Positions 48,599 to 56,915 of a DNA stretch of 64,000 nucleotides are shown piece by piece. Position numbers and translations under genes: made by a program. This DNA is from Paludibacter propionicigenes WB4. Lineage in GTDB: Bacteria; Bacteroidota; Bacteroidia; Bacteroidales; Paludibacteraceae. Below the pieces are notes generated by a model. That model was not told the origin of the DNA. It searched no databases and was given only the letters and a program-made list of their open reading frames with translations. Numbering within the stretch: position 1 is the stretch's first letter; the number at the start of each line of letters is the position of its first letter. The stretch lies in the NCBI RefSeq assembly GCF_000183135.1, contig NC_014734.1, forward strand, positions 1,922,001-1,986,000, read 5' to 3'.

Positions 48599-49753
48599 TC
48601 ATTTAAAAACTCTGGAAGCAAAGTCGTGTAAGGATTTGCGCCAAACCTGCCATTCATGATCGCCGGGGAAAGATGCAAACTGAACTTTCAATCCGCTATT
48701 CTGAAATTTTTTCACTTCCTTTTGAGTAAATTCGAAACGGGGATCCTGCTCGCCAACAGAGACATAGAACAATTTCAGTTTTTGATTGAATTGCTGCGCC
48801 TTAGTGAGTAAACCGGGAATTTCTTTATCGGCATCAAACACCTTGCCTGTCGGGTTAGCAATTCCGCCAAAAATGCCCGAACTGAATACTCCCACAGAAG
48901 CAAAACAGTCAAGACTGCCCAATCCGGCATAAAAAGCCTGACCACCGCCCATAGAAAGACCGCAAAGTGCTCTGTTTTTTACATCGGCCAATGTTCGGAA
49001 ATTTTTATCGATGAATGGAACAACGTTATTCGTTATTTCTTCTTTGAATGCAGCCATTGCAGAGGAAGTATATCCGCCACTTGCAGATACATTTCCATTT
49101 GAAATGACAACAATCATCGGTTTTGCCTTGCCTTCGGCAATAAGATTATCGAGAATAATATCCGTTTTACCCTGTACAGCCCATCCACGTTCATCTTCTC
49201 CACCACCGTGCTGAATATATACCACAGGATATTTCAGCTTCGTATTGACATCGTATCCGGCAGGAGTATAGACAAACAACCGACGCCAGCTATTGGTCAC
49301 CTTCGAGAAATAGTATTTGGAACTTAGCGCTCCGTGCGGAACATCTTTTACATCATAAAAATCGACACCTTTTTCGGGAATATCGATGGCGCTGGACATA
49401 CGTCCTGTTCCGTAAAACGTTTCACTGGCCGGATCGACAACTTTAACGCCATCGATTACGAGCGAATAATAATGAAAACCGGGAACCTGAGGAGCGGTGG
49501 TAACCGTCCAGAAACCCTGATCGTCTTTGGTCATATCGTACAGTTTTCCCAAATCAATCTGCATCTTTTTAGCATCAGGGGCTTTGATCTTGAAAACAAC
49601 GCTCAGGTTGTCCAAAATACGCGGAAAACCATCCGGATTAATGTTGGTTACGGCAGGTTTGCCAACGACTGTTTGCTGGGCGCTGGCCACTCCTGAAAAC
49701 AGAAATGCAAATGCAAACAACGCCATCAGCGCTGAAATGTTTTTGTGTGTCAT
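48599..49753 (-). CDS. CE1 esterase 1 of 7 (feruloyl/acetyl esterase), Asp-type triad
   Basis: 384 residues. The signal peptide ends ASA before Gln26. An E-set/CBM48-like domain (about 40-120) precedes an alpha/beta hydrolase of esterase-D type (about 140-384). The triad is Ser267 (GLSMGG), Asp337 (VGEQD) and His366 (DHEW). The oxyanion-side motif is IQHGGGEDERGW. CE1 contains feruloyl and acetylxylan esterases; ferulate release is favoured by the E-set plus hydrolase layout known in Bacteroides xylan loci. With the next gene it forms one subgroup (VIDGVxVx[16 protein letters not shown], GEQD). It is the last gene of the tandem array. Confidence 0.92.
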   Translation of the reverse strand: MTHKNISALMALFAFAFLFSGVASAQQTVVGKPAVTNINPDGFPRILDNLSVVFKIKAPDAKKMQIDLGKLYDMTKDDQGFWTVTTAPQVPGFHYYSLVIDGVKVVDPASETFYGTGRMSSAIDIPEKGVDFYDVKDVPHGALSSKYYFSKVTNSWRRLFVYTPAGYDVNTKLKYPVVYIQHGGGEDERGWAVQGKTDIILDNLIAEGKAKPMIVVISNGNVSASGGYTSSAMAAFKEEITNNVVPFIDKNFRTLADVKNRALCGLSMGGGQAFYAGLGSLDCFASVGVFSSGIFGGIANPTGKVFDADKEIPGLLTKAQQFNQKLKLFYVSVGEQDPRFEFTQKEVKKFQNSGLKVQFASFPGDHEWQVWRKSLHDFASRVFK

Positions 49754-49765
49754 GGTACTGGTAAT

Positions 49766-50917
49766 TTATTTGAAAAGTTTGGGTACAAAATCATGCAGAG
49801 CCTTTCGCCAGACATGCCATTCGTGTGCACCCGGGAAATAGTTATATTGCAGTTTCAATCCCTTTTCTTTAAATGTTTCAATGGTCTTCTTCGTGTATTC
49901 GTACGAATGATCCTGCTCTCCACTGGAGATATAGAGCAATTTCAATTGAGTATTAAATTTTTCGGGATGGGTAAAGATGCCGGGAATTTGTTTTTCGGCA
50001 TCAAAAATATTGCCGTTTGTTCCACGAAAGGCGCTCGAACTAAAAGCACCGACCCAGGCAAATTTATCCGGATTCAGCATACCGATCCGGAAAGAGGTAC
50101 CGCCACCCATTGAAAGTCCCGCAATGGCGCGATGTTCGCGATCATTCGCAATCCGATAGTTTTGGTTCACAAACGGGATAATCACGTCGACCAGTTCGTC
50201 TTTGAAAAGATCCATGAAGTGGTTGGTAGATTCGGTATTGTAACCGGCTCCTATGTCACGAATAACATACTCGTTGGTTGTAACAACAATCATCGGGATT
50301 GCTTGCTTTTGGGCAATCAGGTTATCCATAATAATATCCAAATGACCCTGTTTCACCCATCCTGTTTCATCTTCACCGGCACCATGTTGCAGATAGAGCA
50401 CCGGGTATTTTTTTGTCGGGTTTTGTTCGTACCCGGGAGGGAGATAGACAAAAATTCTACGCCACGAGTTGGTTTTGGTGGAGAAATAGCGTTTGCTCTG
50501 AACCGTTCCGTGAGGCACATCCTTGATGAGATGAAAATCGACTCCCGCTTCAGGAATTTCGATACCGCTCGCCTCGCGGCTCATGCCGAAAAAAGTTTCG
50601 CTGGCAGGATCGGCAACCGCAACGCCATCGATCACTAAAGAGTAGTAGTGAAAGCCGGGAACCTGAGGAGCCGTAGTAACAGTCCAGAAACCATCACTTC
50701 CCTTTTCCATGTCATATTTCTTACCCAAATCAAGCTGCACCTTCTGGGCTTCGGGCGCTTTGATACGAAACGTAACCCGCAGGTCGGGCAAAATACGCGG
50801 ATATCCGGCACCGGTAATATTGGTTACTGCCGGCGTCGAATTATCAGATTGCTGTCCGAAGCAGGCAAAGGTAGCCTGCAACAAGACAACAAAAACTAGT
50901 AAAAGTGTTTTTCTCAT
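49766..50917 (-). CDS. CE1 esterase 2 of 7, Asp-type triad
   Basis: 383 residues, secreted (signal ends CFG before Gln22). E-set domain at about 35-115; hydrolase domain with Ser269 (GLSMGG), Asp336 (SGEQD) and His365 (AHEW). It is nearest to esterase 1, sharing [19 protein letters not shown] and NSWRR stretches at protein level and long similar runs of DNA. It is 12 bases upstream of esterase 1 and 8 bases downstream of esterase 3. By eye its DNA is richer in G+C than esterases 5-7. Expected to cleave ferulate or acetate esters on arabinoxylan fragments; chemical specificity cannot be told apart by reading. Confidence 0.92.
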
Positions 50918-55768: not shown

Positions 55769-55793
55769 GATAATAATTTATAATATAGTTATT

Positions 55794-56915
55794 TTACTTG
55801 AAAAGAAGCGGAGCAAGTTCTTTCAAACTGCGACGCCATGTAAGAAACTCATGCGCTGTATTTTCTGAAACAAAAGATACTGCATTATAACCAGCAGCTT
55901 TCAAATCTACTGCAGCTTTCTTCACTCCATCAGGATTTTCGCGGCTACCGCAACTCATAAAAATAAGTTTTGCCTGAGATTTATCCTTAATTTCAGCCGG
56001 TGTATAAGTTCCGCCGCTTAATAATGCATAATACGAGAATACTTCAGGACGAGCAAGCGTAATTGAGTGAGTTTCCATACCACCCATTGAAAGACCTGCC
56101 ATAGCACGACTATCCTTTGCTGCAATTGTGCGGAAATTAGCATCAACATAAGGTATAAGTTCATCTACAAGAACTGTTTGGAAAGCATTATAGTTGAAAC
56201 TTCTTATACCTCCTGGTTTAGTATCATTTGTCATTCCGTAAGTCATCACAATGATAAACGGTTTGATTTTACCTTCAGCAATCAGGTTATCCATAATCAA
56301 ATTGGCATGACCCTGAACACTCCAAGCTGTTTCATCTTCACCCCAACCATGTTGCAAATAGAGTACAGGATATTTGGTCTTTGCATTTTTGTCGTATCCG
56401 GCAGGAGTATACACAAATGCGCGACGTGAAGTGTTGGTGCTCTTAGAAGGGAAAAGAATCTGCTGAACATTACCGTGAGGAACGTCTTTCAATGCATAGA
56501 AATCTTTGTCGTGAGCAGGAATTTCGATACCGCTTTCCCAACGGGTAGAACCGTAGAAATTTAATGCACCCGGATCGTTGAATACACCACCGTCAATAGT
56601 TAAATGATAGTAGTGAAAACCTTCATCCATTGGACCAGCAGTAGTTCCCATCCATGATCCATCATCAGCTTTGGTAAGTGGAGTACCACCCTTTGCGCCA
56701 CCAAGTCCGAGACTTACTACAATGCTTTGAGCCTGTGGAGCTACTACACGAAAACGTGCATATCCCTGTGAGTTTACTTTCGGGTATTCCTGACCCGGTT
56801 GATTACATGTAGAAGGCTTGAAGTCTTCAATGATAGCAGGTTGATTTGTTTGTGCAAAACAAAATCCGCTCGTTGTCAAAATTGCAAAAATTGCAACTAA
56901 TAATTTGTTTTTCAT
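55794..56915 (-). CDS. CE1 esterase 7 of 7, Glu-type triad
   Basis: 373 residues, the shortest and the first transcribed of the array. The signal ends CFA before Gln22. E-set domain (about 45-125) has a Gly-rich variant loop (LGLGGAKGG). Hydrolase has Ser276 (GLSMGG), Glu326 (CGSREN) and His355 (TAHEF). The core motif [12 protein letters not shown] is intact. It has no long low-complexity loop. Upstream is a 90-base AT-rich gap before the GH43-CBM6 gene, in which I saw no terminator and only a poor -7-like sequence, so read-through from upstream is likely. Confidence 0.92.

Follow-up and report, generated by a model that had tools for sequence, protein, structure and literature searches.

A window of 64,000 nucleotides from Paludibacter propionicigenes WB4 (RefSeq assembly GCF_000183135.1, contig NC_014734.1, positions 1,922,001 to 1,986,000) encodes a head-to-tail run of seven CE1 esterase genes, here named E1 to E7, on the minus strand at 48599-56915. 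We favor, as the probable reading, an old set of seven distinct, exported CBM48-CE1 esterases that would act on different acyl subsets within a xylan-type gene cluster and that was partly transferred horizontally. All seven open reading frames (ORFs), of 373-411 aa, are complete in the ORF list, and in the order of transcription they are separated by 25, 22, 16, 8, 8, and 12 bases; with their PF00756 matches, this bears out the initial annotation, made from the sequence alone, of seven complete consecutive CE1 genes with 8-25-base gaps. The shared strand and short spacing suggest that the genes form a single operon. Across the 3.69-Mb genome, 8 of 15 PF00756 matches sit in the array (E2 was matched twice, giving seven genes), so the clustering is not due to chance. 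The strain was isolated from residue of rice plants in the anoxic soil of a rice field (PMC3072083). Within the accessible text of the open-access literature in PMC, we found no paper describing the array, those recovered (PMC11653725, PMC10576277, PMC12871809, PMC7110780, and PMC12247016) being on other subjects.

All seven proteins score above the curated cut-off of PF00756 (66-93 bits versus 22) and match the esterase half of the NCBIfam model NF041944, but under its 1200-bit cut-off, with E1 reaching 604 bits against that half. Pfam CBM48 matched none of the seven at E<=1e-3; the N-terminal E-set/CBM48 domain, part of the architecture first proposed, is nevertheless supported because each of the seven can be aligned almost end to end with solved CBM48-CE1 chains (7b5v, 6rzo, 6ne9, and 6mou). 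A model of E4 matches 6mou with a Foldseek probability of 1.00 and a TM-score (TMt) of 0.94. Equivalents of the triad Ser542-Glu606-His638, in the residue numbering of DmCE1B_ct (PMC8040265) used throughout, occur in 7/7, adding the acid to the Ser and His already noted; the acid is Glu in E1-E5 and Asp in E6 and E7. In a set of 219 sequences, from arrays and their relatives, Ser and His are invariant and the triad acid is present in 217. With a PF00756 domain, a triad, and an N-terminal domain, E1-E7 carry the sequence features of the CBM48-linked branch of family CE1, and by analogy with their relatives they are predicted to have feruloyl or acetyl esterase activity.

Secretion, likewise proposed at the outset, is supported by seven N-termini that resemble Sec/signal peptidase I (SPI) signal peptides in a hydropathy and motif scan, not a SignalP prediction. 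The lipobox is absent in 7/7, and an SPI-like signal without one points to the periplasm; the authors of PMC7815789 drew the same inference for their esterases, noting that ferulate detected in the medium conflicts with it. Surface lipoproteins, considered as a candidate class for E1-E7, are unsupported by this motif scan. Among the 33 minus-strand window genes, the lipobox scan gave a single match, at residue 40 of the GH10 protein encoded at 7102-8319, too late for a signal.

How rare such runs are was assessed with a seven-row alignment (A1) as query, across 48 genomes of the genus with every candidate scored, 358 of the family including those 48 (at most five candidates each), 392 of the phylum (at most four), and 392 of the order (at most four, among the matches listed); the samples overlap slightly, and 9, 17, and 16 chosen genomes were rescored with all candidates. 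Within the genus sample, matches at E<=1e-20 were obtained in 25 of the 48 genomes, and a run of more than four genes was seen in the window only; the congeners G016 and G023 have runs of four, the first gene of the latter being cut by a contig end. Adjacent same-strand runs of seven and eight CE1 genes occur in two genomes of a sister genus, G280 and G282, respectively. Runs of six were recovered from G287 (E1 cut by a contig end), G1118, and G1108 (one frame with a stop), and runs of five from G873 and G547 (one double-CE1 gene in the latter). Twelve further genomes of the order sample, not rescanned, matched with 4/4 scored candidates, which among the matches listed are not mutually adjacent. 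Among named genomes, covered by the best 80 of at least 581 confirmed stretches, five-gene runs, each counting one double-CE1 gene, are present in Confluentibacter (L057), a Flavobacteriales metagenome-assembled genome (L049), Emticicia (L011), and Spirosoma panaciterrae (L010). In Confluentibacter, eight CE1 genes span ~11 kb, interrupted after the third by a single GH8 gene. Seven or eight consecutive CE1 genes are thus rare (three genomes of one family in these samples), whereas five or six are uncommon yet recurrent in Bacteroidota; the initial view of the array as exceptional holds for rarity and not for uniqueness. Besides its eight-gene array, G282 carries a second run of four CE1 genes with five CE1 domains (L127:1470-6948).

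The seven paralogues are 40-68% identical, consistent with the divergence first noted, and the closest pairs are neighbors (E4/E5 68%, E2/E3 55%, and E6/E7 55%). The sister-genus genomes G280 and G282, from the same family as the window, each carry an orthologue of every gene from E1 to E7, in the same order and at 78-94% identity; G287 keeps the order with E6 missing, and the run of G283 comprises E1, E2, and E4 only. A careful tree of 81 rows included four solved chains (6rzo, 6ne9, 7b5v, and 6mou), with wtsFae1B (6rzn and 8bbp), which matched each searched member less strongly, left out. In this comparison with characterized CE1 enzymes, a check suggested by the initial annotation, E1 groups with wtsFae1A and E3 with Bi1039-CE1 (both 100/100), while E2, E4/E5, and E6/E7 group with none of the four chains. 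Across the trees, E1 and E3 cluster with proteins from other classes and phyla. The E2 clade consists of rows of the window's family only and forms an unresolved trio with the E1 clade and a clade of Confluentibacter, G345, Planctomycetota, and Rhodothermota; E4/E5 group with a protein of Confluentibacter (100/100), and the E6/E7 clade again holds only rows of the window's family.

A protein search with E6, not used for counts, matched 7,828 of 8,000 scored candidates and so shows a large superfamily; among the 120 listed are relatives at 60-86% identity, and the E6/E7 clade may therefore extend beyond the rows of the tree. Placing E6/E7 in one clade with their best solved-chain match, DmCE1B_ct, was rejected by the approximately unbiased (AU) test (p-AU 0.00017), a value to be taken with caution given the long branches. 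The duplications behind E4/E5 and E6/E7 may have occurred within or near the window's family, and the remaining splits appear older. Forcing 33 array members of six genomes into one clade was 959 log-likelihood units worse (p-AU 2.6e-128); this group was picked with a first tree already in view, but the margin is very large. The ratio of nonsynonymous to synonymous substitution rates (dN/dS) is 0.04-0.08 in 14/14 orthologue pairs between the window and the sister genus, and each array position is under purifying selection.

Divergence is concentrated where CE1 active sites are known to differ, the beta2-alpha2 flexible loop and the beta4-alpha5 region (PMC8040265): paralogue identity is 13% in the loop, 18% in the beta4-alpha5 region, and 49% in the remainder, and the corresponding values between window and G280 orthologues are 73%, 83%, and 92%. 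Loop length ranges from 21 (E7) to 59 residues (E4), with a median of 23 in the 219 sequences, of which 21, including E2, E4, and E5, have loops of at least 40 residues. The model of E4 (pLDDT 86, from a 34-row alignment) has strand 210-214 before the loop and helix 264-285 after it; confidence is below 50 across most of 223-262, so the loop shape is not readable from it. The loops of E4, E2, and E5 (59, 55, and 42 residues), beside the active site, are rich in Pro, Gly, Ala, and Gln.

E5 differs in a further respect. Positions 360, 361, 451, 452, and 639 make CBM48-CE1 contacts in the DmCE1B_ct structure (PMC8040265); they read H, Y, G, E, and E in the other six array members and L, C, N, Q, and V in E5 and its three orthologues (4/4), a combination confined to these four among the 219 sequences. 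H360, E452, and E639 are all lost in 46 of the 219; in 42 of these, position 360 is Y, and 40 of the 42 belong to the YP type of the distant branch.

Comparison with RecA reveals a signal of horizontal transfer. The window's RecA is 86% identical to those of G280 and G282 and 92% to that of the congener G016 (94% pairwise), whereas E5 (93%) and E6 (93-94%) are closer than this to their sister-genus orthologues. At the four positions that G016 shares (E1, E2, E7, and E3), window-G280 identities are 88, 78, 84, and 87% and window-G016 identities 82, 72, 78, and 85%, so that the window is nearer G280 than its own congener at all four, the reverse of RecA. Synonymous divergence (dS) to G280 is 0.53 for E5 and 0.70 for E6, compared with 2.4 for RecA and 1.2-2.2 for the remaining array genes; the E5 value about equals the G280-G282 distance (0.58). 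In steps of 300 bases, window-G280 identity over about 49.9-52.2 kb comes close to that between G280 and G282 (Table 1); in the rest of the array it is 0.67-0.89, and alignable DNA between the two stops just beyond E7 (~48,565) and just ahead of E1 (~56,951). GC content at third codon positions, 0.44 in E5 and 0.48 in E6 versus 0.28-0.42 in the other 29 window genes measured, is suggestive only. Because E5-E6 are closer across genera than RecA, we read at least this part as having moved horizontally, probably following an earlier transfer that involved the whole block.

Taken together, each enzyme would be exported by its Sec/SPI-like signal, most likely to the periplasm, and would strip a different acyl subset (acetyl and feruloyl groups, perhaps also coupled feruloyl or lignin esters) from glucuronoarabinoxylan fragments, which the neighboring GH10, GH43, GH67, and GH115 enzymes would then finish. 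The two segments next to the active site, the beta2-alpha2 loop and the beta4-alpha5 region, would determine specificity. The seven gene lineages would be older than the split between Paludibacter and the sister genus, with E5-E6 at least, and probably the entire block, having passed between the two lineages. Judging by their clades, E1 is probably a feruloyl esterase, as we take wtsFae1A to be from its PDB title and its mention in PMC8040265, and E3 is probably mainly an acetyl-xylan esterase. Its relative Bi1039-CE1 shows high activity on acetylated xylan and very little on feruloylated oligosaccharides, and Bi1033-CE1 is active on FAXX (PMC7815789). Feruloyl esterases often act on acetyl model substrates too (PMC8040265), so the feruloyl/acetyl split may be quantitative. 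The division of labor that the initial annotation drew from divergence is plausible on evolutionary grounds, given the purifying selection and the grouping of E1 and E3 with solved enzymes reported to differ in activity; the ferulate, diferulate, p-coumarate, and acetate specificities that it listed are candidates.

Several observations weigh against this interpretation. Only two of the seven positions group with enzymes of reported activity, and gene order is not universal, since the congeners G016 and G023 have an E7-type gene between E2 and E3. The E2 loop is only 51% identical between the window and G280, and slippage, not selection, could underlie the variation of low-complexity loops. 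On the transfer signal, RecA is the sole full marker, dS is near saturation for E2 and E3, and parts of E1 and E7 also reach window-G280 identities of 0.87-0.89. The cluster lacks a SusC/SusD pair among the 34 window proteins and six upstream cluster genes (PF07715 and PF07980 are unmatched within the window); the nearest pair lies at genome positions 1908580-1913232 on the plus, opposite strand, ~11 kb beyond the cluster's last window gene. Alpha-galactosidase, GH95, GH97, and GH31 genes are also present, so the substrate may not be plain arabinoxylan, and the type strain WB4 is reported as not using xylan (PMC3072083).

Among the alternatives, a recent local amplification for dosage, with young copies sharing a single activity, would account for the most similar copies being neighbors, and these pairs do indicate that older tandem duplication contributed. 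However, paralogues at 40-68% identity stand against cross-genus orthologues at 78-94%, a one-clade origin is rejected, and E1 and E3 cluster with other classes and phyla. Recent amplification, which the initial annotation had named as part of one outcome that would overturn it, is thus rejected as to age, because every position has a same-order orthologue in two other-genus genomes, and we regard it as the least probable explanation. Scarcely more credible is a decaying locus without present use: the xylan-negative report (PMC3072083) and the missing SusC/SusD pair would agree with it, but seven frames and triads are intact and dN/dS is as low as 0.04-0.08.

Redundancy deserves more weight, though we consider it unlikely. 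CE1 genes gathered by transfer and duplication, several of them doing the same job on the same acyl groups, would be in keeping with the mosaic transfer signal, with positions missing in relatives (E6 in G287; all but E1, E2, and E4 in the G283 run), and with the action of feruloyl esterases on acetyl model substrates (PMC8040265). Purifying selection at every position, distinct active-site regions conserved between orthologues, and the array order shared by G280 and G282 argue otherwise. It is similarly doubtful that some positions target other acylated glycans, for instance feruloylated or acetylated pectic side chains. The Melibiase_2, GH2, GH95, GH97, and GH31 enzymes of the cluster, and a strain reported xylan-negative that uses arabinose, galactose, and melibiose (PMC3072083), speak for such targets; two alpha-glucuronidases (GH67 and GH115) with GH10, GH8, and GH43 enzymes around the array, and the origin of the solved relatives 6ne9, 6mou, and 7b5v from xylan loci (PMC8040265 and PMC7815789), speak against them. 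Beyond the old set of distinct, partly transferred esterases that we favor, a bolder extension is tentative and improbable as a whole: the array would be an 'esterase cassette' that travels horizontally, each position would represent a separate, old specificity class, E2, E4/E5, and E6/E7 would act on linkages unassigned to any enzyme (diferulate, oligomeric ferulate, or lignin-ferulate), and E5 would have given up the usual docking with its binding domain arranged otherwise.

The surroundings of the array (Table 1) are of xylan type, with GH10, GH43, GH67, and GH115 neighbors. Past the hybrid two-component regulator (HTCS) gene, more minus-strand genes encode GH97, GH3, GH2, GH43, Melibiase, GH31, and GH10 proteins. 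Upstream of E1, the order is GH43-CBM6, Melibiase_2, GH43, an NMT1-like gene, and a GH43 gene at the window edge; the NMT1-like protein (PF16868, window 61808-62869) lies among the cluster's GH43 genes. Beyond the window, the cluster continues with COesterase, GH43, GH95, GH8, BD-FAE, and GH5 genes and ends at a divergent PNPase gene. The carboxylesterase (L142:437-2005) and the BD-FAE-type esterase (L142:7928-8824) belong to this upstream part, and inspection by eye of the first 60 residues of the six upstream proteins found FVNC, a possible lipobox, inside the BD-FAE signal. The cluster's esterase genes number eleven: seven CE1, two SASA, one BD-FAE, and one COesterase.

Table 1. Coordinates (window positions) of the esterase array, its high-identity stretch, and neighboring cluster genes
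Feature	Position	Strand	Remarks
E1, CBM48-CE1 esterase, 373 aa	55794..56915	-	First gene of array; clade of wtsFae1A (PDB 6rzo), 61% identity
E2, CBM48-CE1 esterase, 404 aa	54554..55768	-	55-residue Pro/Gly/Ala-rich flexible loop; separate clade beside that of E1
E3, CBM48-CE1 esterase, 386 aa	53371..54531	-	Clade of Bi1039-CE1 (PDB 6ne9), 71% identity
E4, CBM48-CE1 esterase, 411 aa	52119..53354	-	59-residue low-complexity flexible loop
E5, CBM48-CE1 esterase, 394 aa	50926..52110	-	Sister of E4; triad intact, five altered CBM48-CE1 docking positions
E6, CBM48-CE1 esterase, 383 aa	49766..50917	-	Triad acid Asp; 93-94% identity to other-genus orthologues
E7, CBM48-CE1 esterase, 384 aa	48599..49753	-	Triad acid Asp; sister of E6; last gene of array
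E5-E6 high-identity stretch (approximate limits)	49900..52200	-	Window-G280 0.82-0.93, G280-G282 0.86-0.94 (300-base steps); read as transferred
HTCS	34121..38047	+	
GH10 xylanase	38157..39284	-	SPI-like signal, no lipobox by motif scan
MFS_2 sugar transporter	39314..40807	-	
SASA-family (PF03629) esterase	40826..42760	-	Also a GH2_N match under cut-off
GH115 alpha-glucuronidase	42757..45309	-	
SASA-family (PF03629) esterase	45431..46333	-	
GH67 alpha-glucuronidase	46508..48568	-	Adjoins E7 downstream
GH43-CBM6	57006..58331	-	Next upstream of E1; orthologues also upstream of the arrays in G280 (77%) and G282 (74%, eighth CE1 gene between)
Melibiase_2, alpha-galactosidase type	58372..60006	-	Presumably GH27-like
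GH43 with GH43_C2	60034..61605	-	

With no SusC/SusD pair, this is a carbohydrate-active enzyme (CAZyme) cluster and not a polysaccharide utilization locus (PUL) in the strict sense. Of the features by which PMC7815789 defines esterase genes-enriched PULs, it has more than two carbohydrate esterase genes and an HTCS, and lacks the SusC/SusD pair. Our guess is that this absence fits the use of soluble acylated oligosaccharides made by neighbors. A strain reported not to use xylan nevertheless keeps a large xylan-type cluster (window 34121-63829 and L142:437-10873) with an array under purifying selection, which poses a puzzle.

Relative to characterized systems, the array is a larger variant of esterase-rich xylan loci already known; this analysis adds the signal of transfer and the altered docking residues of E5. 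The esterase-rich PUL of PMC7815789 likewise combines several CE1 enzymes of differing measured activity with GH43s, an HTCS, and SPI-type esterase signals, and its Bi1039-CE1 is the 71% match of E3; unlike the window, it has five putative esterase genes, three with CE1, in two groups split by GH43 and SusC/SusD genes. PUL 17 of Dysgonomonas mossii (DmCE1A, DmCE1B, and DmCE6A) resembles the cluster in its GH10, GH8, GH43, GH67, GH115, CE1, and further esterase genes, and its DmCE1 enzymes share the CBM48-CE1 fold and triad of E1-E7, but it has two CE1 genes, one a CE1-CBM48-CE1 fusion; its authors propose distinct roles for multiple carbohydrate esterases and state that the targets of DmCE1A and DmCE1B_ct are elusive (PMC8040265). 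wtsFae1A shares a clade with E1; compared with the xylanase/feruloyl esterase fusions of NF041944, E1 is encoded by a stand-alone gene. Many rumen loci carry an E1 relative at the end of ~2.1-2.5-kb ORFs, which are taken to be such fusions. Adjacent diverged CE1 genes also make up the arrays of Confluentibacter, Emticicia, Spirosoma, G280, G282, G1118, and G1108; outside the window's family, no run in these samples exceeds six genes.

For the question of which grass cell-wall esters many CE1 enzymes attack, the array offers seven diverged enzymes of one organism, with orthologues, two strongly differing regions, and one member with changed docking residues, a compact group in which division of labor could be tested directly. 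Far from the array, the same genome also encodes a protein with two CE1 domains in a DmCE1B-like arrangement (3486170-3487969; L128:7048-8970).

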